Of a stretch of DNA of 58,016 bases, positions 2,324 through 55,859 are shown one piece after another. Position numbers and translations under genes: made by a program. Numbering within the stretch: position 1 is the first letter of the stretch; the number at the start of each line of letters is the position of its first letter. The stretch spans positions 1 through 58,016 of the IMG/VR virus record IMGVR_UViG_3300034101_000486; one strand, written 5' to 3'. Source of the stretch: a virus. The notes beneath the pieces were generated by a model that saw only the letters and a program-made list of their open reading frames with translations, was not told the origin of the DNA and ran no database searches.

Positions 2324-4828
2324 TCAAGGGTTAGGGTTGATACCAGTTCCAGTGCTCACAGCGACCTTCTCGCCCGTCGCCATCTCGGCAGCGGCTAGCA
2401 GTTTCGCGGTGTCGTTGTCAGCCGTGTTCATACGCTCGCGGGTCTCAAGGTCTGCGGCGAGGCGTTGATTCTCGGCTTGTTGTCTCATCTGCTCAGACTG
2501 CAAGCGCTCAGTGTTGTTTTGCTGATCGATTGCCATCTTCGCCTGCGTGGTCTGTGCGTCCTGAGCCAACTTGGCTTGGTTGTACTTGGCGGTCTCGGCG
2601 AGTTTCGCCTGCTCCAGCTGAGCACGCTGCTGTGCGAGTTGACCTTGTACCTGAGCGTTGAGCTGTGCAACTTGCAAGCTGTTGTCGGGCGGCATAGGTG
2701 GCTGAGGCTTGAACTGCTGAGCGGCTTGATCCACCTGCGCCAGCTCTTGACCGAAGTTGCCGAGCTGTGCCTCGATGAACTTCTGCACTTCCAAGATGAC
2801 TTTCACCTGCTCGTCGGCTTCCTCGCTGATCAACTCCTCGCGCTGCGCCTTGTCAACCGCGTTGTGTGCTTCGACTAGGTAGTAATTGAGCAGGTGATCA
2901 CGCAAGTGCGTCGCAATCGGGTACAAAAACGTCTTCGCAATCGCAGGATTTGAGCCGAACAGCGGCGACTTGAGGAACGGGATGTGCGTCATCAAGTGCG
3001 CCATGTGATCTTGCGACGGAAGCACGTAAATTGGGCGTCCCATAGCGGCGGCGACGTTCTCGCTCACCGGATCCATGTCCTCGCTACCTGGTTTCGGCTG
3101 CAAAACCTCGCCTTCAGGCACTTTCATGTTGCGGAGGAACATTTCCTCCACTTTTCGTGCGTCATACAGCTGTGGCATAGCCTGCGCACGCTGCATAATT
3201 GCCTGAGTTTGCGCAAAACGCTGGGTTTCGCTGAAAATTGCGGGGTCGCTGACAGGAATGACGTCCATCGGACCGTCAAAATCAGACGGATCGATCTCGA
3301 GACCGGCGGCTTGTGCCTCAACATCCTCAGTCGTCAGGTAAGCGCTGTTGATGCGGTGCAAAATCTTGAAGCATCGCGCCATCGAGCCATGCAAACGGCT
3401 GTGAATTGACGAGAACACCACCATGCCCTGCTCAATGAGCGCCATGGTTGTGCCTACAGGCTGGTTAGGGTTCTGGTCAGAGAGCTTCTCAAAGGACGTT
3501 TGCACCACGCCCTTGCCTGCGTCTACGAGGAAACCCAAGAGCGAGAACAGCGTTGGGCTTGGACCGTTGAACGGCAGTGGCATTGCCAGCTTGCGCACGT
3601 CATCGATGAGCGCCCCACCCTCCATCTCAACCACTTCGGTCGGCTGGACGTTGAGGGTTTGACCTCCTGGACCGCCTTTCAGCTTCAACAGCGTGGGGAC
3701 GTTCTGAATGTGAGCGGAATCGAGCAAAGCGCGGAGTGCGCCGGTGGCTGCGCCGCTCAAGCCGCCAATCATATGCGTCAGACCGATGGGGTACGCGCCA
3801 CGCCAAGGCACAAACGGGAACTCTACGATCCAATCGAGTTCAAGTTGACGGGCGTCATCAGGCTCCCAGTTACGGTACAAGCCCAGACCGAGGTTCGTAG
3901 ACTTGTCAATGCTCAGAATGTAAGGCTCGGGACCATCACCGAAGTCAAGGTACGTATAAACTTCAAAGATCGTACGCAAGCCGTCTTCGTTGTAGCTCAG
4001 GTCTTTGCGTCCCTCAATCTTGTCGTTAGCCTGAGTGGACTTGCTGAACTCGGGATCATCCGGCGTGCCGAGGTCAACGTCGCGGTACATGCCGGACTTG
4101 ACGCGGCGTTGGTACTCAAACTTCGTGATGTACTGCACGTGCGTCTTACGCTCGGCGGTGTAGAAGTTGGTCGCCGCAAACGGCAGGTAGATATCATCAA
4201 TCGCGATGAACTCACTGGCAGGGCGGCGGTGCAACGGGTTCCACATGAACTTCATGTATTGACCGCCGCCGAGCGGGAGCTGCGTGCTCAACTGCTCAAG
4301 CTCGCCACGGAACTCCACCATCTGCTCGGTCGTCTGCCAGTTCATGAACTCGGCTTTACGCTCTGCCTTCTGAATCTTGGACTTGTCCCGCTCGCCTAGA
4401 ATCTTGCTCTTCACCGGACCATTGGGCGGGAAGACCTCCTTCATGAAGCGGGCAGAAAAGTCCACGCACGCCTCGACGAGCATCGGATGAACGACCTTAT
4501 TTGCACCGGTGAACTGAGCACCCCCAGGAGCATCATCACCTAAGCCCGTACGACGCAAGCCCTCCTCGTACTGCTTGTCGCGCTTCTCACGCGCCTCCTT
4601 GTCATTGCCGATCTTCTCAATCAAGTCGCTGATAGCGGTCTTGAGCAGGTCTTGATCGACCTCCTCAACAATGTTGGCAAAGTGGGCGAGTTTGTCGGCG
4701 TGGTCTTCAGCATTCTTCTCACGAATGATTGCCCCGCCGTCTTCGGTGTCCTCTACCTCGTTGTCGACATCCTCAAGTTGAACTACTTCACCTTCAGGCA
4801 TGTCATCTTCTAGTCGTTCAGTTGCCAT
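2324..4828 (-). CDS. Portal protein (P22-like)
   Basis: An 834-residue protein that forms the dodecameric head vertex through which DNA enters and leaves. Residues 1-60 are acidic. The core carries portal-like segments such as FSARFMKEVFPPNGPVKSK, the QLPLGGGQYMKF region and the helix VVFSSIHSRLHGSMARCF typical of the P22-type portal. From about residue 690 the chain becomes a long Gln/Ala-rich coiled coil (repeated AQLNAQVQGQLAQQ-like units), comparable to the C-terminal barrel of P22 portal, which is about 725 aa long. It follows the terminase genes in the standard packaging order. The assignment is from pattern recognition and context. Confidence 0.85.
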   Translation of the reverse strand: MATERLEDDMPEGEVVQLEDVDNEVEDTEDGGAIIREKNAEDHADKLAHFANIVEEVDQDLLKTAISDLIEKIGNDKEAREKRDKQYEEGLRRTGLGDDAPGGAQFTGANKVVHPMLVEACVDFSARFMKEVFPPNGPVKSKILGERDKSKIQKAERKAEFMNWQTTEQMVEFRGELEQLSTQLPLGGGQYMKFMWNPLHRRPASEFIAIDDIYLPFAATNFYTAERKTHVQYITKFEYQRRVKSGMYRDVDLGTPDDPEFSKSTQANDKIEGRKDLSYNEDGLRTIFEVYTYLDFGDGPEPYILSIDKSTNLGLGLYRNWEPDDARQLELDWIVEFPFVPWRGAYPIGLTHMIGGLSGAATGALRALLDSAHIQNVPTLLKLKGGPGGQTLNVQPTEVVEMEGGALIDDVRKLAMPLPFNGPSPTLFSLLGFLVDAGKGVVQTSFEKLSDQNPNQPVGTTMALIEQGMVVFSSIHSRLHGSMARCFKILHRINSAYLTTEDVEAQAAGLEIDPSDFDGPMDVIPVSDPAIFSETQRFAQTQAIMQRAQAMPQLYDARKVEEMFLRNMKVPEGEVLQPKPGSEDMDPVSENVAAAMGRPIYVLPSQDHMAHLMTHIPFLKSPLFGSNPAIAKTFLYPIATHLRDHLLNYYLVEAHNAVDKAQREELISEEADEQVKVILEVQKFIEAQLGNFGQELAQVDQAAQQFKPQPPMPPDNSLQVAQLNAQVQGQLAQQRAQLEQAKLAETAKYNQAKLAQDAQTTQAKMAIDQQNNTERLQSEQMRQQAENQRLAADLETRERMNTADNDTAKLLAAAEMATGEKVAVSTGTGINPNP

Positions 4829-4836
4829 TACTCACC

Positions 4837-7776
4837 TCACATAAACTGGTTAACGATTGCATCCACGCGGCTCGGGTCGTATGCCGACACGCTACCGCCC
4901 TGTGCGTAGTTCTGCGGCGCGTTGATGCTACCCATAATCTGATCGACCTGAAACGGGTCGTACGTTGTGGGCGGTGTGCCCACCATTCCGCCCTCGGCGT
5001 AACGCGTAGACTTGACCTCGTCAGGCTGCAACGATGCGCGACCCTTCTGAGTCTTAGGCGTGCCCCGCTCGGCTTCACGCTGAACGGACTCAATCAGGTC
5101 TCGCAGCGAGCGGTTGTCAGTGCCCAGCTGAATGCCGAGCGCGTTGTTGTGGGTGTCGGTCGGATAGTCAGAGCGAGGCTCGCTCAAACCCATCCAGTAT
5201 CCGGCAGTGCGGAAGGGCGCTTCCTTCAACTCGTACGCCTTACCCAACAAGTCCGCAATAGTCGGATTGGTCTTCTGCGCAGCGATCGCCGAGGCGAGCA
5301 TATGCCGCGCTGCATCGCGCTTGGCGTTGTCGCGGGGGCTGGGGAACATCTCCTGCGCCACGGTCTCTGAGTAAAGTCTCAAGTTGCCCAGCGTCGGGTC
5401 GGGTAAGCCCTCACCCGCACGCACGCGACCGCCCTCGGCGTAGCCGTCGGTCTTGGGAACGTAGTCGTTGATCAGGTCACCGAACTCTTCAGCTTTGATG
5501 AACCGCTCACCATTGTAATTCTTCATGAATTCTTTTTGTATGGAGTTCGGATCAACCATACCGAAGTCCCCGCCGTAATTATCACGGATGAACTTCTTAA
5601 CCGCTGAAGGGTTATTAGCGTCAATGATGTCGTAATGGTGTAGGTCTTTGATATCACCCCACGAGCCGCTCTTCAAGAACTCCAACACCGAGTCAGTGAT
5701 TTTGTTTTTGTAATCTGGGTCACGCCTTGTGTATTCACGCGCACGCTCACTGCTGAAACTATTCTCAACCGGCTTCAGCTCAAGAATATCTTGCGGTACT
5801 GTTTCGGGCTGGCGACCGGTTTCTTTTGCCCAAGCAAGGTAGCGCTGATCCAGACTACCGGTGACTTCGGGTTGACCTTCCCAGTTCAAAAACTCAGTAA
5901 CCTCTGGGGTGTCTTTATTCTTTTGGAACCATGCGTCGAAAGAACTCTGGTTAGGTTTCTGAACCATCGCTTGCGCATGAGGGCGACCCTCAGCATCGAG
6001 CAAGGTGGTGAGGCGTCTGTCCCCAGACCCGTAAGACTTAGCAAGCCCCTCGCCCTGCGTACACCAACCAGCTTGTTTGCCGATCGTCGTACAGAGCTTC
6101 ATAGCTGACGCATCAGTCGTTGCAGGGATATCAACCCACTTCATTCCTGGTTCTTTGACAAATGACAGCTGCGTGTTAGGGATCTCAAGTCGCGGAGTGG
6201 CGGTGAGGTTGCTCATCATGTCACCCCGCTCTGCCTTAATTGCCTCCTCGGAACGCCACTTGTTGACTGCGTCAACCTTCTCCACCATCTGCTTCATCGA
6301 CACCTTATCAAGCTGCTCAGGTGTCAAGCGCAGGTTAGCAGGTAAACCTGACTCGGGGTCAAGCATGTTCAGAATCTCATCTGACATATGACCGAACCCA
6401 AGGTTCTCACCGAGCGATACGGGGTCTTGGATCTTATAAAGCGGCGTGTTGCGGTCGAGCTTTTCGATCCAAGGGTTTTCCGCCATCATGCGGAGAGTCG
6501 CTTTGTCTTCACCAACTATGCTGGGGAAGTTTTTAGCAACGTGGAATTTTTCTTTATAATCTCCCGCAGGCTTGGAGGTGATCTCCATGTCTGAGATGTT
6601 CTCCCACAGCTCGGCTTTGCGGGCGTTAGCTTCATTTGCCTCAGGGTAACCCGCCTCGGCGTGTCTCTTTACGGCGAACCCTTCCTCGGGGTAACCGGCT
6701 TCGCGGCGCATCTTGACGACGTCATCAGGCAACCATGCGCCGAGTTCTTCTGCGGCGTCTCCTGGTATGTGCGAGTAACCCTGCTCGTGCGCCAGACGGA
6801 TCGGGTCGTCCGGTGTACCCATCTCGTTACGGATGTACTTTTCGAGCTTAGTGTCAAGCCACTTGTTGAGCGCTAATCTGTCTTCGCCGTAGAGCTTATT
6901 TAAGACGTCGGGTCTGTTCTCTTTCAGCCATGGGACAGGAGAGTGGTAAACGCTAGGACCCAGATCCACCATCTTAGACCAAAGGTCTTCACCGGCGGCT
7001 GCGTTGATCAAGTCGCCGCTCATGACTTCAGGGTTACGCTTGAGAGGCTGCACTGACATCGTAACGCTGTCTCTTCTAGCGAGCGGTGGTTGCCAGTTAC
7101 CGCCCTTCGGCTTGACGGCATACGACCGCAGGGGTGAGGTCGCGCTCTCAACGATGTCACGCGCAACGGCTGGCGCGGTCTGCACGAGGTTGGTACCCAC
7201 GCGCTTAGCAATGCTCGTTAACGGCGGTCCGACCAACATCGCCGCCTCAGCCGTGTCATCGGGCAGCATGGGGACGTTAGCCTTGTTGATGTTCGTGATC
7301 GGCTGTCCGTAGCTCAAGCGCTCAGCAGTACGAGCTAGCGCCGGTACGCCGAGGAACTCCATCGTACCCTGCATCTGTTGCGTGCGCTGCGGCGAGTAAG
7401 TCTGCTTCAGGAAGTCGGCAATGCGACCGAGCGCGGCGTTCTGCGGTTGGGCTTGAACGGAGTCACCCTTAGCGTAGTGCGTCCTGACCGAACCGCCGTC
7501 CGCCCACTTGACCTTGTCAGCCCAATACGCGGCGCTGGCTGGTCCCTTGGCGATGTTAGCCGCGTGACGCGACTTGAACGAGGCACGCTTAGCCTTCATG
7601 CGGTCAGACTCGCCCGCCTTGGGCTTACCCGCCGTGCTAGCGCCTTGCTCGCCGAAGCGAATGATCTTCTCCTTACCGTTCACCTTGGTCTTCACGATGT
7701 GGGACTTAGTGGGGTGGCTCGGCGTGCGCCGTGGTTGATTCAACGGCAAGCTGTCCTTGTCGACGCGCTCGGTCAT
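4837..7776 (-). CDS. 979-aa multidomain protein, PcfJ-like core, possible virion cargo
   Basis: An unusually large gene between large terminase and portal. Residues 1-75 are basic and contain FKSRHAANIAKGPASAAYW. At about 93-110 is a short motif WADGGSVRTHYAKGDSVQ, which recurs almost unchanged in the 891-aa ejection protein. The middle (about 560-660) contains GWCTQGEGLAKSYGSGDRR followed by LLDAEGRPHAQA, resembling the PcfJ family. A later stretch (about 840-900) has KRDAARHMLA and TDTHNNALGIQLG, resembling DUF6973-type domains. The C-terminus carries YAEGGRV, YAEGGMV and YAQGGSV, and a duplicated YDPxxVDxI element. It overlaps its 54-aa neighbour by ATGA. Function is unknown. Its size, position and shared motifs suggest a packaged or ejected protein, but this is inference. 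Confidence 0.6.
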   Translation of the reverse strand: MTERVDKDSLPLNQPRRTPSHPTKSHIVKTKVNGKEKIIRFGEQGASTAGKPKAGESDRMKAKRASFKSRHAANIAKGPASAAYWADKVKWADGGSVRTHYAKGDSVQAQPQNAALGRIADFLKQTYSPQRTQQMQGTMEFLGVPALARTAERLSYGQPITNINKANVPMLPDDTAEAAMLVGPPLTSIAKRVGTNLVQTAPAVARDIVESATSPLRSYAVKPKGGNWQPPLARRDSVTMSVQPLKRNPEVMSGDLINAAAGEDLWSKMVDLGPSVYHSPVPWLKENRPDVLNKLYGEDRLALNKWLDTKLEKYIRNEMGTPDDPIRLAHEQGYSHIPGDAAEELGAWLPDDVVKMRREAGYPEEGFAVKRHAEAGYPEANEANARKAELWENISDMEITSKPAGDYKEKFHVAKNFPSIVGEDKATLRMMAENPWIEKLDRNTPLYKIQDPVSLGENLGFGHMSDEILNMLDPESGLPANLRLTPEQLDKVSMKQMVEKVDAVNKWRSEEAIKAERGDMMSNLTATPRLEIPNTQLSFVKEPGMKWVDIPATTDASAMKLCTTIGKQAGWCTQGEGLAKSYGSGDRRLTTLLDAEGRPHAQAMVQKPNQSSFDAWFQKNKDTPEVTEFLNWEGQPEVTGSLDQRYLAWAKETGRQPETVPQDILELKPVENSFSSERAREYTRRDPDYKNKITDSVLEFLKSGSWGDIKDLHHYDIIDANNPSAVKKFIRDNYGGDFGMVDPNSIQKEFMKNYNGERFIKAEEFGDLINDYVPKTDGYAEGGRVRAGEGLPDPTLGNLRLYSETVAQEMFPSPRDNAKRDAARHMLASAIAAQKTNPTIADLLGKAYELKEAPFRTAGYWMGLSEPRSDYPTDTHNNALGIQLGTDNRSLRDLIESVQREAERGTPKTQKGRASLQPDEVKSTRYAEGGMVGTPPTTYDPFQVDQIMGSINAPQNYAQGGSVSAYDPSRVDAIVNQFM

Positions 7777-7937
7777 TTCTTCCTCGCCGCTCTCATATTG
7801 TCGACGAGGTTGGGGTAAGGGCGTCCGGCGCTCTTTGCTGCCGCCTTGGCGGAGGACTTAGCCGCTGGTGACAGCGTCTTGCTCTCGCCGAGACCCTTTG
7901 GTCGTGCTTTGTCCCAGATTGGCTTCTTAGGCTGCAT
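7773..7937 (-). CDS. Small basic protein between terminase and 979-aa gene
   Basis: A 54-residue Lys/Ala-rich protein beginning MQPKKPIWDKARPKGLG and ending GRPYPNLVDNMRAARKK. It overlaps the terminase stop by 11 bp and the next start by ATGA, so it is read as part of the packaging operon. I recognise the PNLVDNMRAARKK ending from small phage genes in the same position. Its basic charge would suit DNA or RNA contact, but function is unknown. Confidence 0.7.
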   Translation of the reverse strand: MQPKKPIWDKARPKGLGESKTLSPAAKSSAKAAAKSAGRPYPNLVDNMRAARKK

Positions 7938-9498
7938 ACGGATTTATCCTCGGTTTGTTTGAGTGGCGTGGCTCGTCAATGTCCCGTGCTCGCGGCAACT
8001 CAAACCACCCGTCATTCTTGAGGTAGATGATCGCTTGCGTAAAGGTGTCAACATAGTCATCATGCTCCGCCACTGGGAACTTGCCCAATTGTTTGAGGAA
8101 AGCCGCAGCCCAGCTCACTGGTTGACCGAGGTTCTTTCCTGATTCTGGTACCCACAATAATCCCAGCTCCAAGGTGGGGGCGGCTTGGTGCGCCCGTGAT
8201 ACCTTATCAGCCTGACCTGGATTATAGCCCACGGCGGGCACTTTCGCCAAGCGCAAGTCTTGCAACAGTGATTGCCCACTCGCCTTCGCTTCCACCAAGA
8301 TACGGTCAGGGCGCTTCGCCCGTGAGTATGGCGAGTCCTTCGTCATCCCGCCGTATTCCGTCGTCCAGTCTTTCACGGCTCGTGCCCGCAGGTCTGGATA
8401 GCTCAGGTGTTCGTCCCACGCATCAATCAGCATCGCGTTGCGTTCGCCCTTGTGCGTGAAGATCGCCCAGACCGTGCAGGCGGTCGGGTCGCCCGTGGTC
8501 TTCTCGGTGAACGCGCAGTCGTACGATTGCAGTATGTACTCAAACGGAGGCAAACCTGATGACGCTGGCCACAGGTTGAAGTGCTTGGTCTTGAGGATAC
8601 CGCCCTCGCTCGGCGTGGGGTCTTGCTGCAACTGTCCTGCGGTTCCGTATGTACCCAACAGCTGCTTCAGCGTCGTGATCTCTTTCTCGCCGAACCGCTC
8701 GGGGCAGATCAGCTCGCCCTTCTTTTTGCGGGGGTCGTACGGTCCGAGCACGGTCTTGCGTGACTTGCCGTCCCACTCCGCCGGAATGCAGATATGCTCC
8801 CAGCCCTTGATGTCCTCAAGGATGTGACCGCTGATGTCGCGCTCGTGCAGTCGCTGCATGACGGTCACCATCGCATCGGTCTTCGGGTTGTTCAGTCGCG
8901 TTGACCATACCATGTCAAACCACTCAAGGTCTGACTCCCGCATGACCTCCGACTGCGCGGCTTGAGCGCCGTGCGGGTCGTCAAGTATCAACCGCGAGCC
9001 GCCCTCACCGGTCGCCGTTCCGCCGACTGAGGTCGCGAGCCGGTAGCCGGTCTTGTCGTTCTCAAACCGCTGCTTGGCGTTCTGGTCTCCGGCGAACGAG
9101 AACATGTGCCCCCAGCGCTCTTGATACCACGGTGACTGCAACAGTCGCCGCGTCTTCAAGTTGTCGCGTGTGCTCAGGTTGCCGGAGTACGAGGCGCACA
9201 GGAACTTCTGAGCAGGGTCGGTAATCCACTCCCACGCTGGCCACATTACGCTGACGATTGTTGACTTTGAGTGGCGCGGCGGGATGTTGATGAGCAGGCG
9301 GTGAATGTCGCCCGAGCTAACTGCCTCAAGGTGCTCGCAGATGATCTCAATGTGCCAGCTCGCAATGAACGGGATTCCTGGCTCCACCACGTGCCACGAC
9401 TGCTTGACGAACTCGTACAGCGAGGCAGACGCGTTGCGGCGGTCTTGCTCCCGCTTGACCATCTCAAGCATCACAGCGGGGGACATTGGTGCGTTCAT
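7927..9498 (-). CDS. terL: Terminase large subunit
   Basis: The packaging motor ATPase and headful nuclease, 523 aa. The N-terminal ATPase has Walker A PPRHSKST at 73-80 and Walker B LILDDP at 170-175, where the second acidic residue should be catalytic. A MQRLHERD coupling-motif region follows at about 214. The C-terminal RNase H-like nuclease shows QSYDCAF, VEAKASG and HDDYVDTF, which supply the expected acidic triad. Length is typical. It overlaps the MazG-like gene by 4 bp and feeds into the portal operon. Confidence 0.95.
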   Translation of the reverse strand: MNAPMSPAVMLEMVKREQDRRNASASLYEFVKQSWHVVEPGIPFIASWHIEIICEHLEAVSSGDIHRLLINIPPRHSKSTIVSVMWPAWEWITDPAQKFLCASYSGNLSTRDNLKTRRLLQSPWYQERWGHMFSFAGDQNAKQRFENDKTGYRLATSVGGTATGEGGSRLILDDPHGAQAAQSEVMRESDLEWFDMVWSTRLNNPKTDAMVTVMQRLHERDISGHILEDIKGWEHICIPAEWDGKSRKTVLGPYDPRKKKGELICPERFGEKEITTLKQLLGTYGTAGQLQQDPTPSEGGILKTKHFNLWPASSGLPPFEYILQSYDCAFTEKTTGDPTACTVWAIFTHKGERNAMLIDAWDEHLSYPDLRARAVKDWTTEYGGMTKDSPYSRAKRPDRILVEAKASGQSLLQDLRLAKVPAVGYNPGQADKVSRAHQAAPTLELGLLWVPESGKNLGQPVSWAAAFLKQLGKFPVAEHDDYVDTFTQAIIYLKNDGWFELPRARDIDEPRHSNKPRINPYAA

Positions 9499-22591: not shown

Positions 22592-22592
22592 A

Positions 22593-23630
22593 ATGGAGTT
22601 AGTCGTACGCAACGTCAATCAGGCTTTCAGCGAGATATTCTGGAAGCTCAAAGTGCTCAACCTACAACCTGAGCAGACCCGAAATGGTCCCGCTATCGTG
22701 TACCCTGAGATGGTGACCACGGTCTATAAGTGCCCGTCAGAGCGCGTGCTGTTCCACAAAGGGCGCGACGCTAACCCGATCTTTCACCTGATGGAGTCGA
22801 TCTGGATGCTCGCCGGACGTAACGATGTTGCGTTCCTGCAACAGTTCAACCGGCGCATGGTGGAGTTCAGCGACGACGGCAAGACATTCAACGCCGCCTA
22901 CGGCTACCGCTGGCGTAAGCACTTCGGTCATGACCAGCTTGACGAAGTCATCAAGACCCTGCGCCGCGACCCTGCCAGCCGTCAAGCCGTGGTGCAGATC
23001 TGGGACGACGCTGATTTGAACAAGAAGACCAAGGACAAGGCGTGCAACATGCAGGTCATCTTTGATACACGCGGCGGTCGCCTGAACATGACCGTAATCA
23101 ACCGGTCTAACGATATCTGGTGGGGTGCGTACGGCGCGAACGCTGTGCACTTTAGTTTCCTGCAGGAGTTCGTTGCCGCTGCGATAGCGTACAGAATCGG
23201 CGTGTACCGTCAGGTGAGTAATAATTTCCACTTATACACAGAACTTTATAACGCGAAAGATTACTTAGTCATGCCGCCCGATGCGAGCAACTACGACCAT
23301 TACTCCAACGGCGCAGTGCGCCCACTGCCTATCATGTTGAACGGCGAGTACAAACTGTTCCTAGCTGAATGTGAGATGTTCTGTCACGACCCGTACAACG
23401 AGCGGATTCACTATGCTAACCCGTTCTTTGAGCACGTGGCTCGCCCTATGGCTATGATCAGTCGTGTGCGCAAGATTCACGCGGGTGACGGACGTAGCTA
23501 CGCCGCTAAGATCCGCGCCGAGGACTGGCGTCGCGCCGCGTTTGAGTGGATTGACCGCCGTGACCACGCACGCAAGATCAAAGAGGAAGATGACGAGATA
23601 AATGAGTTTAGAAAGGCTGAGAAAAAATAA
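22593..23630 (+). CDS. dUMP hydroxymethylase (thymidylate synthase homologue)
   Basis: A 345-residue member of the thymidylate synthase fold. The catalytic Cys is Cys151 (KACNMQVIF). Twenty residues later comes Arg171-Ser-Asn-Asp174 (NRSNDIWWGAYGANAVHF), matching the Cys146/Arg166/Asp169 spacing of the E. coli enzyme. Asn183 is in the place that selects dUMP over dCMP. Phage homologues make 5-hydroxymethyl-dUMP with methylene-tetrahydrofolate, and the neighbouring DNA kinase and transferase strongly favour that product over dTMP. Start is the ATG after CGGAGTTCTAA, 1 bp after the previous stop. The C-terminus has a charged extension (about 320-345). Confidence 0.85.
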   Translation: MELVVRNVNQAFSEIFWKLKVLNLQPEQTRNGPAIVYPEMVTTVYKCPSERVLFHKGRDANPIFHLMESIWMLAGRNDVAFLQQFNRRMVEFSDDGKTFNAAYGYRWRKHFGHDQLDEVIKTLRRDPASRQAVVQIWDDADLNKKTKDKACNMQVIFDTRGGRLNMTVINRSNDIWWGAYGANAVHFSFLQEFVAAAIAYRIGVYRQVSNNFHLYTELYNAKDYLVMPPDASNYDHYSNGAVRPLPIMLNGEYKLFLAECEMFCHDPYNERIHYANPFFEHVARPMAMISRVRKIHAGDGRSYAAKIRAEDWRRAAFEWIDRRDHARKIKEEDDEINEFRKAEKK

Positions 23631-30306: not shown

Positions 30307-32343
30307 TTACTTCATTTTCTTCAGGTCGGCTTCGATGTCCGCATCAATGTCGGGACCGATTAGGCGACCACCAGGAATGTTGGGCATGTCAGCAGCCTCA
30401 ATGTCCTCTGGCTTGGCGTTAGGATCAATCGGTGAAGGTGGGAACGCTGTCGTAGTGCCCATGATTGTGGCGGTTTCGCCTTTGCTCAGGCGCTTAGCCC
30501 CTGCTGCCGCTTTGACGTTGTACTGCTCGATGAGTTTGACCGCCGCAGCAACTTCATGCGGGTCGCTTGACATGAGGAGCTTGCCGACCTTCTCAGCAAT
30601 GTCATCGGTCATGGTAGCGCTACGCGCCACACGTGCCGCCATGTTACTCAGAGACCCCCAGAATCCTCCCGAGACGGCATCCGCAACCGCTGCACCCACA
30701 CCTGAGCCTTCCTCAAAGCGTTCACGCGCCTGAGTACGTCTTCCGGTAGCCGCACCACCCAGTATGCGGTTGGATTGTTGGAACAACTGAGCCTCGCGCT
30801 CAAGCGCAGACTTGAACATCTCAAACTTGGCAGGGCTGTCAAACAGCGGCTGCAACTTAGCTTGCATCTCAGGAGCACCGATGATGCGCTGGGCGGCGTT
30901 GATGTTGCTTGACGGATCCATGATCTTGCTGTACAAGTCACGCACCACGCCTGTGCGGAACGCGTCCTTCTCAGCCGCACCCATTTTGCTGATCATGTCA
31001 ATGACCTGCTCGTGGTCGAGCTTGTTGAAGTCGTTCATACCTGCGCGCATCGCATCAAGCACTTCCATGTCACCGGAGTAGGCTTGACGAGCCTTGAGGT
31101 ACGGCGAGTTTGCGCCGCCGGTGGCTTCGTCAATCGCATTCACGTAGACGTTGCGCAACTGTTTGAGGGCATTAGCCTCGGCGCTGCTCATACCCTTAGC
31201 GCTCTTGAAACCGGCTTCAATCGTAGCGTCAATACCACGCTTGATATAATCAAGAGTGCGCACGTCAGGTAGCTTAGTCAGCTCCAAAATCTCGTTACCA
31301 TTAGCGTCAAATTTACCGCTGGGTTTGTAGATTTCGGGCAGGGCGAACTTGCTGGGGTCTTCTCCGCGCAACTTAGCCGCTTGAGCCTCGGTGTCAGCGA
31401 TGCTACGTGCCCTGCCCCAGAACTCTTGAAAACGGGGGTTCTTCAACGCATCAATAATGCGAGGGTCATCTACGTCACCGTAAGCGTACGCATCTTTGTA
31501 CATGGTATCAGCTTGCTTACGCAGATCCGCCACCATCTTCTGTTCATCAGCGTAGAAGTCACCAGACTTGATACCTTTACGGGTTTGTGCGTAAGTGCGC
31601 TCACGAGCACCGGCGGTCTGCTCACCGAGTTTCTTCTCAACTAAGCGACCGCTGGGACCACTACGCTGGGCAACAGTCTCAGCGAGGTCAACTAACGCGG
31701 GGTCTGCGTTGGCGATAGTTGAGGGGATATTACGAGCACGATCCTGAAGGACTTTCTGCTCAATCTGCTGCGGAGTCATACCTGACTCGTTGATAGCGCG
31801 GGAGACTTTACCCACTGCCGTCTTAGTCGTGCTAGCTTCGGTCGGTGCGAGGCGATCGCGCAGCCACTTAGCCGCCGCGCCGCTACCGCGAATTACCGCT
31901 GGGGCGGCAGTGCCGACTGTCGTACCGACGACCGTACCAGTAACTGCGCCGGAGCCTCGCTCTCCTGGTTGGGCAGAACCCGCGCCGGAGACAGCACCGG
32001 TTACGCCGCCGGTCACTGCGCCGCGCACGTAAGGATTTGCTGCTAGGCGAGCCAACGCGCTAGTCGCGACTGGGGCGGTAGCACCTCCTGTAGCGGGGGC
32101 GGTCAGCATAGCCGCCAGAGCGGGAGCAGCCCCGCCGCCGAACTCAAGAGCCGGAGCTACGAAAGGATTCTCTTTAGAATATTGAGCGTACTCTTGATTG
32201 ATCCTAGCGAGTTCAGCCTCGTAGCCTTTGCTACCGGCGAGCTTAGAGCGAAGCCATGCCTCGGCTTCATCACCCCAACCCATACCGAGACCCTGACCGA
32301 TAGCAGCGCGAGCGCCGCCTAAGTACGGATTAGCTGTAGCCAT
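30307..32343 (-). CDS. Putative ejection (internal virion) protein, 678 aa
   Basis: A Gly/Ala-rich N-terminal region (about 55-155, including AVTGGVTGAVSGAG and VTGTVVGTTVGTAAP) could insert in membrane. A long helical charged region follows, and the C-terminus has a short acidic helix (IDADIEADLKKMK). Four such large proteins lie in a row at the end of the late operon, the place where P22- and T7-like phages encode proteins ejected with DNA. Shared base with the upstream stop. Function is inferred from position and composition. Confidence 0.6.
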   Translation of the reverse strand: MATANPYLGGARAAIGQGLGMGWGDEAEAWLRSKLAGSKGYEAELARINQEYAQYSKENPFVAPALEFGGGAAPALAAMLTAPATGGATAPVATSALARLAANPYVRGAVTGGVTGAVSGAGSAQPGERGSGAVTGTVVGTTVGTAAPAVIRGSGAAAKWLRDRLAPTEASTTKTAVGKVSRAINESGMTPQQIEQKVLQDRARNIPSTIANADPALVDLAETVAQRSGPSGRLVEKKLGEQTAGARERTYAQTRKGIKSGDFYADEQKMVADLRKQADTMYKDAYAYGDVDDPRIIDALKNPRFQEFWGRARSIADTEAQAAKLRGEDPSKFALPEIYKPSGKFDANGNEILELTKLPDVRTLDYIKRGIDATIEAGFKSAKGMSSAEANALKQLRNVYVNAIDEATGGANSPYLKARQAYSGDMEVLDAMRAGMNDFNKLDHEQVIDMISKMGAAEKDAFRTGVVRDLYSKIMDPSSNINAAQRIIGAPEMQAKLQPLFDSPAKFEMFKSALEREAQLFQQSNRILGGAATGRRTQARERFEEGSGVGAAVADAVSGGFWGSLSNMAARVARSATMTDDIAEKVGKLLMSSDPHEVAAAVKLIEQYNVKAAAGAKRLSKGETATIMGTTTAFPPSPIDPNAKPEDIEAADMPNIPGGRLIGPDIDADIEADLKKMK

Positions 32344-35018
32344 TATTCATTTCCTTCCTCAAGCGGGGTAGTCATGCGGTAAGCGCCCGAAGTGATTTGA
32401 TCAAGGCGTGCTTGTTCGCGAGCGGTACGGTCTTGCAACACTTTGTACGCACGCTTGATGACCGCAGCACGCTCTTCTTTAGTCTTAGAGCCGATACCTT
32501 CAAGCTCCATCAAAATTGCGCGTTCGCCCTCGGTCGGTGAACCGCCGAAGGTTGCTTTCAGTTTAGCTAGACCTTGAGAACCGAGCAGGTTGTTAAGGAT
32601 ACGCGTATTGACGATCACAGGATCTTTAGAACCCGCCGCTTCCGCTAAGAACTGTTGACCTTTATCCAACCAGCCACCGGCTAGAGAGTTCGGGTTCAGC
32701 GCGTAAGCCTGTTTCAGATCAGCGAGAGACTGCTTGCTAGAAGCGATAAGGTCTTCAGCCTCGCTCTTCATCCTAACTTCGCTCGGACTGAGTTTAGCCT
32801 GCTGCTGTTTCTGGTTCTGGAACTTCTCCTGAGCCAGCAGTAAGTTGGCTTGCGCGGTAGAAACCCCAGCTAATGACGCATTAATTTGCGCCAGCTTAGC
32901 CTCAACATTCATATTACCGAGAGCTTCCACACGCTTCTGGTACTCGGGTGTTCCTGGCTTGAGACCTTCGTCAACGGCTTGCTTACCCGCCGTAGACTGG
33001 GGGTCACCGGACTTGATGAAGTCCTTGATCAGTTCGGTCGCGATAGCACGCTTGTCTTTCATTTCCTCGCCGGCAAGCGCTTGCAAGCTGCGGAGGTCCT
33101 CCTTAGCCGCGCCCATCTTCATCTCCTGACCCTTCAAAGCTAGAGCCAGTTTTTGCTGGGTAGCCTGCTGAGCAGAAGCGCGTTTTTCTTTAGAGTACTC
33201 AGCCAGCTCCTTACCGACCATGCCGAGGTTTTCAGCAAAGCGACCGGTCTTAGTGGGAGCGCCGAACGCAGCCGCAAGGCGGAAATACATCTCAGCCTTA
33301 GAACTCTTCTCGTCCTTGGGCGTCTTCATTGAGTCAGCCAGCATTTTAGCGAACACGTCGCTCTCAGCCTTAGCAGCAGCGCGAGCGGCTTTGAGGTCTT
33401 CACCGTAAGCGGTATCCTTCGGACCATACGCGGCGAGCAGCGCTTGAATACCACCCATGCGCTCATCACCGAAAGGCGCTTTAGGCGCGACAGCCGGAGG
33501 TTTAACTTGAGCTGGTACAGCTACGACCGCTGGAGCAACGGGCATATCAGCGCTGGCAATCTTAGCAAGCACAGATTGCGGTTGAGGTTTAGGCTCAGTA
33601 ATGACCGCGTTTGAAGGGGTCGGCTCCGTGACGGGGTAAGTCTCTACCTGAGCGTCATAACCCTCGGGCAACTGGACGCTACCGGCGGTTTGGTAATGCG
33701 TCTTGACGCGACCTCCGCTGGCGTATCGCTGATAATAATCACCGGTGTAGCCGTGATCTTTCATCCAATCAATATCAGATTGCGTACCGCCACCCGCCAT
33801 AATCATGTCAGGTGTAAATTGATTTTCGTTGTACCAGCTTATTTTGTCGTATGGGTTGTAAGTGTCCCAACCTTCAGGTAATCTGAACCTGTCATAATTG
33901 TTCACAAGGTCTGATGTACCCGTTCCTCCGGTAGTTCCCGTAGTTCCCGTAGTTCCGGTAGTTCCGGTAGTTCCTGTGGTGTTCGTGGTTCCGCCAGTAC
34001 CCGTAGTTCCCGTAGTTCCTGTGGTTCCAGTCGTGGTTCCGGTAGTGGTGGTCACCGGCGCGGGCACAGATCCTGGGTAAGCTAAGTTACGCAGGTAGTT
34101 CCAATCCGTATCGGTTTGCGTGCCGAAAGTGCTGTCCGCCGCTCTACGCAAGTCAGCGTCAGTGTAACCTAAGCCGATCTGGCTACGATAGTAATCGGCT
34201 TTCTGCTGAGGGGTGCGGTTACCCAGAGACAACGGGGTTGAGCCGTAGGTTGGGTTTGAAGCCTGATTACCCCAGTAGCTACCCGTAGCATTGTAGAGGT
34301 CTTTATTGCTCACACCCCAGCGGTTTGCTTCATCTTGAATCTGTGAAGTAGACGCGTAAGGGTTGTCAGTGATGTACTTGTTGATGTTCTCGTTGTACTT
34401 GTCCATACCAATACCACCAGGACCAGTAGCGTAACGCACACCTGCCGAGCCGTAACCGCTAGGACCAGAGCCGCCGTAAGTAAAACCAGAGCCCATGGCG
34501 TTACGGATGTCAGCGTCGCTGACTTTCCATTCGTCCTTAGCCGCCGCGATGTCAGCAGCAGACGCGTTAGGGTTTTTAGCAAACCAGTCTCTGATGTTGC
34601 GATTGGCTTGATCAACACCAATACCTCCTGGTCTGTCCGCAAAGGCTCTCATCTCAGAACCCGTTGGCGTGGTGGAAGACGTCGTGCCGTAACCGGTGTC
34701 AAACTGTTTCTGCAGATACATCGGCGTGTTCTGCAGGCGGTTTTGATAGTCAGATTTGTAAGCGTTATAAGCGCCTTGATCTAACTGATACTTACGCATG
34801 GTTTCGTTAAACGCCGAGGGGTCTGTTTTGTAGGTGTTAAAGTCAGCTAACTGTTTGTCGTAAGCAGCCTGACCAGCTAAAGCGGCAACATCAGTACCCG
34901 TAGGACGGCTGCCGGTGGGCGCAGTCGGAACCGTAGGGGCGCTCGCACCTGAGTAAGTCACCACACCAGGAGTACTAACTCCGTACTGCCGCATAATGCG
35001 GTTGAGTTCAAATCCCAT
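32343..35018 (-). CDS. Putative ejection protein with repeats, 891 aa
   Basis: The N-terminal half contains two or three diverged copies of a unit with PGGIGxDxxNxNIxxW/Y...NPxAS, each followed by a helix ending in SNKDLYNATG or SDADIRNAMG. A Thr/Gly linker encoded by a DNA tandem repeat (about 320-370) separates it from the C-terminal half. Residues about 445-465 carry YASGGRVKTHYQTAGSVQ, nearly identical to a motif in the 979-aa protein. The C-terminal 350 residues are helical and charged, with coiled-coil character. Likely a virion or ejection protein. No enzyme motif is seen. Confidence 0.6.
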   Translation of the reverse strand: MGFELNRIMRQYGVSTPGVVTYSGASAPTVPTAPTGSRPTGTDVAALAGQAAYDKQLADFNTYKTDPSAFNETMRKYQLDQGAYNAYKSDYQNRLQNTPMYLQKQFDTGYGTTSSTTPTGSEMRAFADRPGGIGVDQANRNIRDWFAKNPNASAADIAAAKDEWKVSDADIRNAMGSGFTYGGSGPSGYGSAGVRYATGPGGIGMDKYNENINKYITDNPYASTSQIQDEANRWGVSNKDLYNATGSYWGNQASNPTYGSTPLSLGNRTPQQKADYYRSQIGLGYTDADLRRAADSTFGTQTDTDWNYLRNLAYPGSVPAPVTTTTGTTTGTTGTTGTTGTGGTTNTTGTTGTTGTTGTTGTTGGTGTSDLVNNYDRFRLPEGWDTYNPYDKISWYNENQFTPDMIMAGGGTQSDIDWMKDHGYTGDYYQRYASGGRVKTHYQTAGSVQLPEGYDAQVETYPVTEPTPSNAVITEPKPQPQSVLAKIASADMPVAPAVVAVPAQVKPPAVAPKAPFGDERMGGIQALLAAYGPKDTAYGEDLKAARAAAKAESDVFAKMLADSMKTPKDEKSSKAEMYFRLAAAFGAPTKTGRFAENLGMVGKELAEYSKEKRASAQQATQQKLALALKGQEMKMGAAKEDLRSLQALAGEEMKDKRAIATELIKDFIKSGDPQSTAGKQAVDEGLKPGTPEYQKRVEALGNMNVEAKLAQINASLAGVSTAQANLLLAQEKFQNQKQQQAKLSPSEVRMKSEAEDLIASSKQSLADLKQAYALNPNSLAGGWLDKGQQFLAEAAGSKDPVIVNTRILNNLLGSQGLAKLKATFGGSPTEGERAILMELEGIGSKTKEERAAVIKRAYKVLQDRTAREQARLDQITSGAYRMTTPLEEGNE
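33921..34053 (-). repeat. 9-bp tandem repeat coding for a Thr/Gly linker
   Basis: About 14 imperfect units related to GTTCCCGTA run head to tail, encoding repeated Thr-Gly-Thr within the 891-aa protein. Units differ by single bases (CCG, CCC, CCT). Such arrays change length by slippage, so the linker may vary between isolates. Confidence 0.85.
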
Positions 35019-35027
35019 ACCTGCTCC

Positions 35028-36467
35028 TTAGATGTTCTGCAGACCTTTGTACGTATAAAGACCGGTCGCCACTTGAGACAGCGGTGAAGGTGAATACGTA
35101 GCGCCGGTAGTAGTGCCTTGATTAGTCGTAGTTTGCGGTGTGATTGGAGCCATGCCGCGAATCTGCGTGCTGAGCCAATCCATCTGCTGCTTAGGATACA
35201 GTTGTTGCGCGTCAAACTGAGCCTTAGCTGCGTTGAGCTGTTGCTGCATTTGATTCTGCTGAGCAGAACCTGCGCCCTCAAGTGAGGCAACATCGGCTGC
35301 ACGCATCGCCTGTTCTTGCTGTTGCATGTTAGCAAAATTCTGCAACGCAGACATCTGACGCTGATAGTCTTGAGCCTGAGCCGCTTGTGTAGCCTGAGCA
35401 GCGGTGAGACCGAACTGCTGTTGAGCTTGACCGGCGGTGGTCTGTGCTTGACCGAGGTTAGCCAGCTGAGACATCTGCTGAGCCGTGAGTTGACCTTGTG
35501 TCTGACCGAGGTTAGTCAGGTTTTGTTGCTGCTGGCTTGTCAGCTGACCAGCGGTCTGACCGAGGTTACCATACTGAGCACCGCCCTGAAGCACGCGAGA
35601 GAGGTCTGCGCCGGAAATGCTACCGACCGTACCAGCCAACTGCGCTTGACGTGCGAGGTCTGCCTGAGAAGCAGTGAGAGCCTGTCCGTAGCCTTGGTTG
35701 GCGAGTTGGGCTTGCTGATTCAAGACAGCTTCCTGAGTGTCGCGCAGGGCACGGCTACCGAATTCACCCATGCGGCTAGAACCGAACTGACCCGCCTTGA
35801 TAAACGCGTCAGAAACTCCTGGCAGCAGGTTCTCGCTGAGGTTACGACCACCCTGCTTAGCAATGACGTCCATGACACCCGTCTGATACGGCGACATGTA
35901 CTGACCGACGTTTTGAGCGGAAGACTGTGAGGCGGCTTGCAGGTAAGGGTTAGCCGCGTTCAGGGCGCGATCAGACAACGCCTGAGCGGTGGTCTGACCG
36001 GCTTGCGTCAGGTAAGGCTGCGCCGCACCCATGATGTCCTGCTGTCCGGCTTTACTCAGCGCAGGTTGACCCGCACCGACGATGTCCATCTGGCCAGCTC
36101 GGTTGAAGTAATTCTGCCCCGCGTTCAGGTTCTGATCGACTAAACCTTGACGCAAGTACTGACCTTGAGCTTGCTGCAAGGCGTCCGCCGTGCCTTTATT
36201 GCTGAAGCCGTACATACCGGACTGAGCTTTGTCTAGGTCGCCTTGATAGAAACCTTGATTAGATTGAACTTGCCGGTACGCTTGCTGCTGGAGCGGCGAC
36301 AATTCAGCCACAGTGGGCATGTCGTACGCTTGATAAGGCGCGTTAGCGATGTTCTGGGCGACTTGAATTTGATTGTAAATCGCATCCTGCATCCACTTAG
36401 GAGTCTCAGTGGATGACGTGGTGTAAGACGTAGCGGTCTGAGGCGACCCTTGGAATAAGCTGCCCAT
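35028..36467 (-). CDS. Putative ejection protein, Gln-rich, 479 aa
   Basis: Begins MGSLFQGSPQTATSYTTSST and is rich in Gln and Ala throughout, with repeated short units such as LGQTQGQLTAQQ and LGQAQTTAGQAQQ (about 315-365). The middle has FIKAGQFGSSRMGEFGSRAL. I recognise this type of protein from short-tailed phages of aquatic metagenomes, upstream of other ejection genes. The elongated coiled coil suits a trans-periplasmic tube or ejected protein. Function is not established. Confidence 0.6.
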   Translation of the reverse strand: MGSLFQGSPQTATSYTTSSTETPKWMQDAIYNQIQVAQNIANAPYQAYDMPTVAELSPLQQQAYRQVQSNQGFYQGDLDKAQSGMYGFSNKGTADALQQAQGQYLRQGLVDQNLNAGQNYFNRAGQMDIVGAGQPALSKAGQQDIMGAAQPYLTQAGQTTAQALSDRALNAANPYLQAASQSSAQNVGQYMSPYQTGVMDVIAKQGGRNLSENLLPGVSDAFIKAGQFGSSRMGEFGSRALRDTQEAVLNQQAQLANQGYGQALTASQADLARQAQLAGTVGSISGADLSRVLQGGAQYGNLGQTAGQLTSQQQQNLTNLGQTQGQLTAQQMSQLANLGQAQTTAGQAQQQFGLTAAQATQAAQAQDYQRQMSALQNFANMQQQEQAMRAADVASLEGAGSAQQNQMQQQLNAAKAQFDAQQLYPKQQMDWLSTQIRGMAPITPQTTTNQGTTTGATYSPSPLSQVATGLYTYKGLQNI

Positions 36468-38272
36468 TATGCAACCCCTTTCAAATAGCTGAGTGGTGAC
36501 TTAGCGTTGGGGCTGAATTTACCCTTAGCCAGTACTTTACCTTTGTGTGAACGGATGTTACTACGCATAGCGTCAAGGCGCTTAGCGCCCTCTTTGTTGG
36601 AGCCGTCGCCGAGCATTGCAACTGTTTCTGCGTCAATCACGTATTCACCATCTGAGAGTTTAGCATCAATGGTGTCTGCTCGACCAGAACCCGCTCCCTG
36701 AGCGAATCGGGCAACAGCTGACAGAGCGCCACCTTGTGCCATTCTGGGCGGAGGGGTGGTCGCTGGTTGCATATTATAAGCGCCAGAAGTGATTTTTGGC
36801 CAACTCCGCGCCATGTATTCAGTCAGGCTCAAGTTGTTTGAATTAGCATCACTTTGTAACTTGTTCCAGTCCCATGCGATTGACGGGCGGTTAAAGTATT
36901 CTTGCTGCTCGGGAGACATCTGTTTGATCGCCTGCTGTACCTGCGGAGGGGCGTTACCGAGGCTACCCAAAAGCGTAGCACCGGCTAAGACGTTTCTAGC
37001 CGAGAAAGGACTCTCAGAACCCGTAGGAGCGCCTGCGGTTTTGAATTGACCCAGCGGTGATTGGGCGGTCGCGGTCATACCGCCACCCATATCTTGACTA
37101 CCGTAACCTTGAGGGGCGACAGGCGCTCTGGGGTTCGTCAAAGAGTAATCAACGTCTAGGCTCTCAGGACCTTTGTAACCCATCTGTCCTGTCATGAAGT
37201 TGGTTGTGCCGTAACCCGCCTCAGGCACGCCGCTATAAGAGTAATCACCACCCTTAGGCATTTTCAAACCTTCTAGCACTGCGTCTGATGGCTTCATGCC
37301 GAGGTTGCTAGATTGAGCAGGACGAGCCATACCCGCTGCCAGACCCGCCAAGCCCCCGCCGATGATCGCAGACTTGGGATCATAACCGGCGGCAATCATG
37401 TTACCGAACTGTTTACCGCCTGCGCCGAATGCCGCGCTACCGGTGATGTCGCCGAGTTGCTGTCCTGCGTAAGTACCTAGAGCACCCGTAGCTGCGCCTT
37501 TCAAGAAGCCTTGACCCGACGCCACGCCCATTCCGCCGCCGATCAGCGCATTACCTAAGACTTTCTGTCCCGCTGCGCCTAAGTCTAAACCTAAACCACT
37601 GTTAGCCGCGCCGCCCACGTATTCACCTAGACCACCGCCCAGACCGCCCAACACCGCGCCTTTGAGCGGATCGCCGCCGGTCAGAGCAGCCGTCGTGCCG
37701 CCGATAACGGCGCTACCCGCCATAGTTGCAGCTGTGCCGGTTAAACCCATAGAAGCGCCAATTGCTGAGCCAGCTCCAGGCACAATGAAATCCAACGCAA
37801 TCGGCAATGCTATCGCTAAGAACTTCTTCAAACTGAAATATTCAGGGTAGCCTGTGCGGGGGTTAATCGTTCCTGAACCACCCATGCGCTTGAGCATCTC
37901 GGCTTCACGCGGATTGATGTGCGCCAGCATCGTATCACCGTGCCGACCCATAGAAGCCAGACCGCCCTTAGCAAAACCTTTCTGCTTAGTACGCTCTTGC
38001 ATTCCGTACAACAATACGAGCAGGGAGATGATAACGATCGGGTCAAACTGCTCAGGCAAGTCACCCTGTTCAACCATGTCATCTTGGATCGCCGAAGCTA
38101 AGATCTCTGGGTATTTATCAGGGTTATTGAGCGCAAACTCAAGCATCTGCACGAGTTCATCTAAGCCCTCGCTCGTAATCGGCATGTCACCGATCTGATT
38201 CTCAAGGACTAAAACGGCTTTAGAAAACCGAGGGTCGCTTTTCGCAATTTCTAAAATTTCTTGTTTATTCAT
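36467..38272 (-). CDS. Putative membrane-active ejection protein, 601 aa
   Basis: Residues 1-100 are helical and include a hydrophobic segment (PIVIISLLVLLYGM). FAKGGLASMGRHGDTMLAHI follows at about 106-125. From about 150 to 320 the chain is Gly/Ala-rich and hydrophobic (LAIALPIALDFIVPGAGSAI and repeated GGG stretches), likely able to enter membrane. The C-terminus has KLSDGEYVIDAETVAMLGDG, which is recurrent in phage virion proteins. Position in the ejection block and composition suggest a role in DNA delivery across the inner membrane. Confidence 0.6.
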   Translation of the reverse strand: MNKQEILEIAKSDPRFSKAVLVLENQIGDMPITSEGLDELVQMLEFALNNPDKYPEILASAIQDDMVEQGDLPEQFDPIVIISLLVLLYGMQERTKQKGFAKGGLASMGRHGDTMLAHINPREAEMLKRMGGSGTINPRTGYPEYFSLKKFLAIALPIALDFIVPGAGSAIGASMGLTGTAATMAGSAVIGGTTAALTGGDPLKGAVLGGLGGGLGEYVGGAANSGLGLDLGAAGQKVLGNALIGGGMGVASGQGFLKGAATGALGTYAGQQLGDITGSAAFGAGGKQFGNMIAAGYDPKSAIIGGGLAGLAAGMARPAQSSNLGMKPSDAVLEGLKMPKGGDYSYSGVPEAGYGTTNFMTGQMGYKGPESLDVDYSLTNPRAPVAPQGYGSQDMGGGMTATAQSPLGQFKTAGAPTGSESPFSARNVLAGATLLGSLGNAPPQVQQAIKQMSPEQQEYFNRPSIAWDWNKLQSDANSNNLSLTEYMARSWPKITSGAYNMQPATTPPPRMAQGGALSAVARFAQGAGSGRADTIDAKLSDGEYVIDAETVAMLGDGSNKEGAKRLDAMRSNIRSHKGKVLAKGKFSPNAKSPLSYLKGVA

Positions 38273-54916: not shown

Positions 54917-55435
54917 TTATTTGGCTTTCTTGTCAGCGCGGCGAGCTTCGGACAGGGCGATTGCGACGGCTTGCTTGGTGCCGGTGACCTTGGGACCCAT
55001 CTTGCTGCCGGAGTGCAACTCACCAGCTTTGAACTCGCCCATGACCTTGTCGATCTTCTTGTAACCCGCTTTAGGAATTACTGGTCCGCCCTTTTTCAGC
55101 ATCATCTTGCCAGGCAAGTTGGGCGCTGTGTGCATCGCGGTTTCGCCAGGATTCTTGTTAGCCAAAACGCCCAAAGCACCTCGGCTTTTAATCATCCCTT
55201 GAGGCGCAGCAGGGGCTTTTACGGTCTCACGCTGGATTACCTCTTTACGCTGCATGCGGGGGGTCTCCATGGATTCGTGCTTCTCCATCGCCTTACGGCT
55301 AGGATAGCTCTCACCCGTGGCTTTCTCCATAACCTTACCGCCTTTGGCGTAGCAGTTTGCGCTACCGCCCATGGCGTAGCCTTTAGCCATACCGCCTGAT
55401 GAGAAATTAAAATCTTTAACTTTTCCGACTGTCAT
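54917..55435 (-). CDS. DUF6496-like virion protein with GG motifs, 172 aa
   Basis: Begins MTVGKVKDFNFSSGGMAKGY after an AAGGGG site. It contains YAMGGSANCYAKGGKVMEKA (the short A-x-G-G motif in duplicate) and ends KVTGTKQAVAIALSEARRAD, the DUF6496 signature. The protein is basic. It may be a minor capsid or packaged protein. No enzymatic motif is seen. Confidence 0.65.
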   Translation of the reverse strand: MTVGKVKDFNFSSGGMAKGYAMGGSANCYAKGGKVMEKATGESYPSRKAMEKHESMETPRMQRKEVIQRETVKAPAAPQGMIKSRGALGVLANKNPGETAMHTAPNLPGKMMLKKGGPVIPKAGYKKIDKVMGEFKAGELHSGSKMGPKVTGTKQAVAIALSEARRADKKAK

Positions 55436-55445
55436 GTTGAACCCC

Positions 55446-55859
55446 TTAGTTGCTAGTGGCGTAAGTCTTGAGACACTCAAGGACGATACTATACATGTCG
55501 CCCGCAGAGGCGTCTCTCGTGGTGAACAACACGTCACCGGTTTTACCTGCACCGGCATTGTTTGGAATACCACCAAAAGACGAAAAGTCCATCAGGTAGT
55601 TTGAGTTTTGCGGAATCTGCCAAACGAATACATCGGTCGTGGCGTCCCAAAGAATTTGGACTTCCATACCGTGTGTAGTTCCGTAAATCTTGTTCAGCTT
55701 GACGCCGTTACAAGCCAGACCGAACGAGTTAGGGTTCAGCGTTGAGACGTCAATTTTGATGACACCGGTTTCACCAGTGCCGTCTGAAAAATTTGTAAAT
55801 TTGGCGATGAACAGGCGCTCACCGTCAAGAATTGTTTGCGAAGCTACTGCGTCAGCCAT
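55446..55859 (-). CDS. Head decoration-like structural protein, 137 aa
   Basis: A soluble beta-rich protein, MADAVASQTILDGERLFIAK, then MEVQILWDATTDVFVWQIPQ and LMDFSSFGGIPNN. I recognise this as a common structural protein near capsid genes of aquatic phages. The gene follows a terminator hairpin, so its expression may be lower than that of the preceding gene. Confidence 0.65.
   Translation of the reverse strand: MADAVASQTILDGERLFIAKFTNFSDGTGETGVIKIDVSTLNPNSFGLACNGVKLNKIYGTTHGMEVQILWDATTDVFVWQIPQNSNYLMDFSSFGGIPNNAGAGKTGDVLFTTRDASAGDMYSIVLECLKTYATSN

Follow-up and report, generated by a model that had tools for sequence, protein, structure and literature searches.

A short YAxGGxV peptide motif is shared by otherwise unrelated ejection-cluster, polyvalent-type and DUF6496 proteins of a virus record and its relatives

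The stretch of DNA analyzed here, referred to as the window, is the 58,016-base virus record IMGVR_UViG_3300034101_000486, and the element in question is the peptide YAxGGxV (tyrosine-alanine-x-glycine-glycine-x-valine), which recurs in several of its proteins. YAxGGxV is a short linear motif selected at the protein level; it lies in stretches predicted to be disordered, is carried by a narrow set of genes and is placed at module borders and near C-termini. The carriers are proteins of an ejection cluster (891 and 601 amino acids, aa), a 979-aa polyvalent-type protein encoded between the large terminase subunit and the portal protein (the slot), and, in the head/neck region, a 219-aa protein with DUF6496. 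An earlier note on this DNA had proposed that the motif links unrelated virion proteins. The analysis confirms this recurrence on firmer grounds than that note had, but within a narrower scope, that of internal or ejected-type proteins. What it shows directly is the peptide itself, how strongly it is enriched and conserved, which genes carry it, where in the proteins it lies, and that disorder is predicted there. Two forms were counted, a strict form ([YFW]A.GG.V) and a broad form ([YFWM]A.GG.[VLIAM]).

Every peptide quoted in the earlier note was found in the 979- and 601-aa proteins and in a protein given there as 172 aa, which is the ATG-started part of an open reading frame (ORF) at 54917-55576 (219 aa from TTG). 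The 18-residue match between the 891- and 979-aa proteins was also confirmed. The two islands, YASGGRVKTHYQTAGSVQ and WADGGSVRTHYAKGDSVQ, are identical at 10 of 18 positions and are encoded on the same strand (-) about 26 kilobases apart. When the 17,767 18-mers of the window proteins were compared without gaps (BLOSUM62), the 979 island matched the 891 island better than any other non-self 18-mer did (score 53, next 30). The gapped alignment of the two whole proteins was not significant (score 60, reached by 23 of 500 shuffles); thus, the genes are otherwise unrelated, and the claim that the motif joins unrelated genes is well supported. The 18-mer is built of two units of about ten residues (YASGGRVKT-HYQTAGSVQ), and the relative L120 has YAKGGRVKTHYNDGGRVKTHFQTG.

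The strict form occurs six times in the window proteins versus 0.10 expected (500 shuffles, maximum 2). In 77 loci picked solely by terminase similarity (L136-L212, with three earlier loci left out), 186 copies were found in 798 ORFs versus 0.57 expected (30 shuffles, maximum 3). When the order of the motif residues was permuted, the real order gave 72 copies and the other 59 orders gave at most 7, in a mixed set that was partly chosen by the motif. The third positions of the A, G, G and V codons vary among 199 motif copies and therefore the constraint acts on the peptide. Low-complexity drift or compositional bias could draw on repetitive flanks, such as the Thr-Thr-Gly tract of the 891-aa protein, but the shuffles, the permuted orders and the invariance across the 23 homologues described below rule it out as the cause, and we give it practically no weight.

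Gene specificity was surveyed in 11 related genome-scale records (window included), which were reached via 891 or terminase similarity and read whole; some of them also carry the motif pattern, and their ORFs are uncurated longest-ORF calls. The motif was present in 36 of 42 members of the four families (979, 891, 601 and 219 aa) versus 3 of 684 other ORFs. The associated Fisher p value (4e-51) overstates independence because family members are related. An unrelated twelfth record (G009) had no motif copy. The earlier note had named equal frequency in non-virion proteins as the outcome that would speak against it, and the frequencies are far from equal. Among other ORFs that match late-region window genes, just 1 of 213 carried the motif. 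Thus, the motif marks a subset and not virion proteins generally, and a general virion mark is ruled out; the subset comprises ejection-cluster proteins, the polyvalent protein of the slot and the DUF6496 protein. The motif is common in these genes and rare in other late proteins. For the 979- and 219-aa proteins the word virion is an assumption.

The four families differ in detail. All nine orthologues of the 601-aa protein carry the motif, nearly all near the position of FAKGGLA (residues ~100-106). The 979 family has it in 11 of 12 members, the miss being a 91-aa stand-alone phrog_7595 gene, and the 219 family in 7 of 9, where the misses have near forms such as YAKGGSC. The 891 family has it in 9 of 12, a count that includes twice a G004 gene whose two parts lie at opposite ends of the record, and that scores a 2059-aa ORF of G006 as a miss by best hit alone.

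The 891-aa protein has no Pfam or PHROG match, and a PDB sequence search with its profile gave no meaningful match; it is 34% identical over 73 aa to the Pam5 "tail lysozyme". An alignment of 23 homologues (28-88% identity to the window protein) contains 23 fully invariant columns, four of which are G435, G436, V438 and Y442 of the island. The pattern G-G-x-V-x-x-x-Y is present in 23 of 23 homologues, and A433, T440, H441 and G446 are nearly invariant. The linker that flanks the island is hypervariable and cannot be aligned among homologues. In the AlphaFold model the predicted local distance difference test score (pLDDT) is below 50 over residues 422-506, island included, which predicts disorder; the 891 and 979 models both come from shallow alignments and have low overall confidence. 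Short members of the family (L095, L124 and L109) have lost the long linker, so that their island stands at residue 20, right after the N-terminal peptide. Also, the Thr-Thr-Gly repeat tract of this gene (window 33930-34050) varies in length among close relatives.

The 979-type gene sits between the terminase and portal genes in the window and in its relatives. Its phrog_7595 module (residues 9-91), which is a stand-alone gene in many phages, stops exactly at the start of the first motif. The window protein is 27.5% identical to an annotated PcfJ-like protein and scores 21.8 for DUF6973, below the cutoff of 27. Slot relatives L016, L151, L181, L182 and L013 have matches above the curated cutoff (ART-PolyVal PF18760, PcfJ PF14284). 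ART-PolyVal and PcfJ are hallmarks of polyvalent proteins, for which the authors of that account predict packaging and injection (PMC5512222). The slot proteins range from several hundred to more than 2000 aa and exchange modules among relatives. Seventy distinct slot proteins were collected from 80 terminase loci, and all 55 complete ones carry the motif. The last copy is at most 65 aa from the C-terminus in 52 of the 55 (median 22; 24% expected under random placement), and a (V/I)D.I.NQ tag closes 35 of the 70 proteins.

Motif copies in the slot proteins also border the modules. For example, ART-PolyVal (727-853) in L151 is flanked by copies at 672 and 871, DUF6973 (128-219) in L192 by copies at 92 and 244, and the DUF6973-like module (805-901) of the window protein by copies at 779 and 926. 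The difference between L171 and L162 is one module, spanning from one motif copy to the next. Homology breakpoints are about 2-fold enriched within 10 aa of a motif copy (17% versus 7% expected, 1163 ends). All four copies in the 979-aa protein fall in stretches with pLDDT below 50 (model pLDDT 50.0, predicted template modeling score 0.33), and a Foldseek search of this model against the PDB gave no match at E<=0.001. Genes near stand-alone phrog_7595 genes show a weak trend toward the GG motif (31 of 281 near genes versus 35 of 636 far genes), and a motif gene is nearby at 25 of 63 loci with a phrog_7595 signature (80 examined); these counts are not main evidence. In viral loci that encode phrog_7595, some small basic proteins (L042:11940-12398, L020:10465-10815 and L021:5460-5789) also repeat MAKGG-like motifs and resemble one another in their C-terminal tail (DGIARKGKTRGRMV and alike); they possibly belong to a wider class of GG-tagged small proteins.

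Eight named phages were compared (parts read: P22, first 24 kb; CRP-902, most of the record; Pag-Yong1, 35 kb; Caulobacter phage RW, ~38 kb). Two of them, DSL-LC04 and ctpbd312, encode a polyvalent-type slot protein, and in both the motif occurs in slot and ejection-cluster proteins. The six phages without such a slot protein lack the motif, or nearly so, in the parts read. Pag-Yong1 has one broad-form copy, in an ejection-cluster gene, and RW has one in its 601-like protein. The broad form also yields chance hits, and the further RW hits look like chance, one being in a DNA helicase and another in an ORF that runs opposite to annotated genes; short motif-like C-termini of HTVC023P were left out of the count. 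By portal identity DSL-LC04 is further from the window than RW and CRP-902. Thus, among these eight phages, presence of the motif goes with the slot protein more closely than with relatedness of the portal.

The matches of the terminase, portal and 615-, 479- and 678-aa proteins give the window a P22-like podovirus layout. The cluster follows a gp10-like gene (615 aa, phrog_3287) in the order 601, 479 (phrog_4287), 891 and 678 (phrog_5880), and occupies the place of P22 7-20-16 and Pam5 11-12-13. This position and the match of the 479-aa protein to a DNA-ejection PHROG are likenesses to the P22 ejection proteins gp7, gp20 and gp16; unlike the 891- and 601-aa proteins, these P22 proteins all lack YAxGGxV. 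A PDB sequence search with the 678 protein gave no meaningful match. In RW the last gene of the ejection cluster matches an internal virion protein. The annotations of the corresponding DSL-LC04 cluster run from "tail tape measure" to "DNA transfer protein", and the terminase-portal slot of that phage holds a PcfJ-like protein. The C-terminus of the 601-aa protein and its RW relative match tape-measure PHROGs at a module of the form [FM]AxGG ... LSxGEYV; unlike in tape measures, the window match is weak (E 0.0077), the rest of the protein apart from such stretches has no tape-measure match, and cluster position and neighbors are podovirus-like. The features are collected in Table 1.

Table 1. 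Motif copies and the genes that carry or surround them (window positions).
Feature	Position	Strand	Remarks
Island YASGGRVKTHYQTAGSVQ	33672-33725	-	891-aa protein, residues 432-449; two tandem units of ~10 aa
Island WADGGSVRTHYAKGDSVQ	7453-7506	-	979-aa protein, residues 91-108; right at end of phrog_7595 module (9-91)
YAEGGRV	5422-5442	-	979-aa protein, residues 779-785; upstream edge of DUF6973-like module (805-901)
YAEGGMV	4981-5001	-	979-aa protein, residues 926-932; downstream edge of DUF6973-like module; then YDPFQVDQIMGSI
YAQGGSV	4888-4908	-	979-aa protein; within C-terminal tag region
C-terminal tag YAQGGSVSAYDPSRVDAIVNQFM	4840..4908	-	979-aa protein, residues 957-979; conserved among slot proteins
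FAKGGLA	37955-37975	-	601-aa protein, residues 100-106
MAQGGAL	36722-36742	-	601-aa protein, residues 511-517; start of LSDGEYVIDAETV module
YAMGGSA	55358-55378	-	219-aa ORF, residues 67-73; tandem with YAKGGKV, 9-aa period
YAKGGKV	55331-55351	-	219-aa ORF, residues 76-82; tandem with YAMGGSA
Portal protein (phrog_1216)	2324..4828	-	One anchor of slot
979-aa multidomain polyvalent-type protein	4837..7776	-	N-terminal phrog_7595 module, PcfJ-like middle, weak DUF6973
Large terminase subunit (PF17289)	7927..9498	-	Other anchor of slot
678-aa protein	30307..32343	-	phrog_5880, shared with Pam5_13; without motif; last cluster gene
891-aa ejection-cluster protein	32343..35018	-	Island carrier; C-terminal half predicted helical; between 479- and 678-aa genes
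479-aa DNA ejection-type protein	35028..36467	-	phrog_4287; without motif; defines cluster
601-aa ejection-cluster protein	36467..38272	-	Residues 507-549 weakly match tape-measure PHROG (E 0.0077)
219-aa ORF (172 aa from internal ATG)	54917..55576	-	DUF6496 (PF20106) at C-terminus; head/neck region

Several other window genes were noted. A Cpn10/GroES-like protein (PF00166) is encoded at 1585-1998, and such a gene is also annotated near the head genes of the portal-related phages RW, DSL-LC04, ctpbd312, CRP-902, HTVC023P and Pag-Yong1. A thymine-hypermodification set at 20111-23630 comprises an ADDT amino acid:DNA transferase (PF18724), a thymidylate-synthase-like protein and 5-hydroxymethyldeoxyuridine DNA kinase-like genes (PF18748, below cutoff, and PF18723). 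A 1153-aa protein at 44323-47784 contains five LamG-like (Laminin_G_3) stretches and is followed by glycine-rich proteins; most relatives lack it or have a largely diverged form.

From these patterns we infer, with a probability of about 0.42, that YAxGGxV may be a short address motif by which internal proteins are loaded or ejected; virion presence, partner and function are putative. Its carriers, the ejection-cluster, polyvalent slot and DUF6496 head/neck proteins, would form a functional class that has the motif, and not ancestry, in common. While the head is assembled, one partner would bind the motif in all of them where a disordered linker or tail exposes it, possibly the portal, the scaffold or the ejection core, or like motifs may bind one another. 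Tagged proteins would be collected in the head and then leave with the DNA. In a polyvalent protein, the near-C-terminal tag and the inter-module copies may keep each module on the loading or ejection path despite shuffling. The earlier note had offered a capsid-loading, a membrane-contact or a processing signal. Of these, capsid loading would fit best, and no evidence was found for membrane contact. Several points weigh against an address motif. P22, Pam5, HTVC023P and CRP-902 have no strict or broad-form copy in the stretches read, and the 479- and 678-aa genes of the window cluster lack the motif; thus, the motif is not needed for ejection as such. In the 891 family, G007 has FSNGGAV and two G006 ORFs have no form of the motif. 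The place of the 979- and 219-aa proteins in the virion is presumed. In a partner search by gene content, no window gene followed the motif distribution. Finally, glycine-rich disordered linkers alone could yield part of the pattern. A wider form of the address motif, a genome-wide code in which one head partner recognizes the peptide on ejection, polyvalent and DUF6496 proteins, also takes in the extensions GGxVKTHYxxG and GGSVxAYDPxRVDAIxNQ; we consider it rather doubtful.

The placement between modules (L151, L192 and the window 979-aa protein), outside predicted folds, would also suit an inter-module hinge, a flexible joint with an aromatic anchor that lets large internal proteins unfold and thread the narrow tail channel with no specific partner. 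The copy at the junction of the module lost between L171 and L162 is consistent with this, as is the link to tape-measure modules, which suits proteins that pass the tail. However, a hinge does not require the invariant V, the T-H-Y or YDPxRVDAIxNQ, and copies near the very C-terminus have nothing left to join, so we regard a hinge as unlikely. Peptidase cleavage at Gly-Gly, by which head proteins would mature or polyvalent modules be freed after injection, seems quite improbable. Inter-module placement does resemble that of polyproteins, host OpdA removes the first 20 residues of P22 gp7 according to the record note, KGGKGG stands right after residue 20 of that protein (L298, 9369-10058), and the short 891 variants have a leader of ~19 aa before FASGGRV. 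However, no peptidase family was found among 20 window proteins scanned with Pfam (72 ORFs called), a cut at the C-terminal copy would free a mere ~20-residue peptide, and conservation reaches well downstream of GG (THY, YDP..VD.I.NQ).

The breakpoint enrichment near motif copies (17% versus 7%) could be read as a recombination joint, in which conserved DNA promotes the swapping of modules, with the peptide as a side effect. This enrichment is modest and partly produced by the shared motif itself, the third codon positions vary, and the 891 island is kept where modules are not exchanged. A recombination joint is therefore disfavored as the main cause and appears very improbable.

The address motif may be compared with known systems. 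Encapsulin cargo-loading peptides are short, lie at the C-terminus and bring cargo into a shell of the HK97 fold; with their different sequence and system they offer an analogy only. The nearest parallels are the capsid-targeting sequences of T4, which are N-terminal propeptides (PMC5694885), and of P1 DarB, whose N-terminal 30 residues send a reporter to the capsid (PMC9024508). Like these, YAxGGxV would be a short peptide that steers internal proteins of unrelated origin into the head, to be injected later. Unlike them, it has a different sequence and occurs in internal, inter-module and C-terminal copies, up to 9-fold; N-terminal copies were found just in the short 891 variants. The large multidomain slot proteins, with ART-PolyVal and PcfJ domains in several relatives and a place beside terminase and portal, resemble the polyvalent proteins of Iyer et al. 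(2017). That account differs in that the available part mentions no such motif, and the words "glycine" and "linker" are absent from its main text (PMC5512222). The available part of a review of ejection proteins likewise mentions no shared motif (PMC8954989). A literature search for the motif, or for strings containing it, yielded no relevant paper among the titles listed.

For most phages it is, to our knowledge, an open question what selects polyvalent effectors and ejection proteins for packaging. The packaging signals described in the literature cited above are N-terminal (T4, P1), and the present motif differs in position. Provided that it marks exactly this class, it would offer a concrete 20-residue tag and explain how effector modules are swapped without loss of delivery. 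If the wider address code were true, placing the motif on either side of a new effector module, whatever its kind, would be enough for a phage to inject that module with the rest of its payload. If the motif marks exactly this class, the injected proteins of environmental phages would be predictable from sequence.

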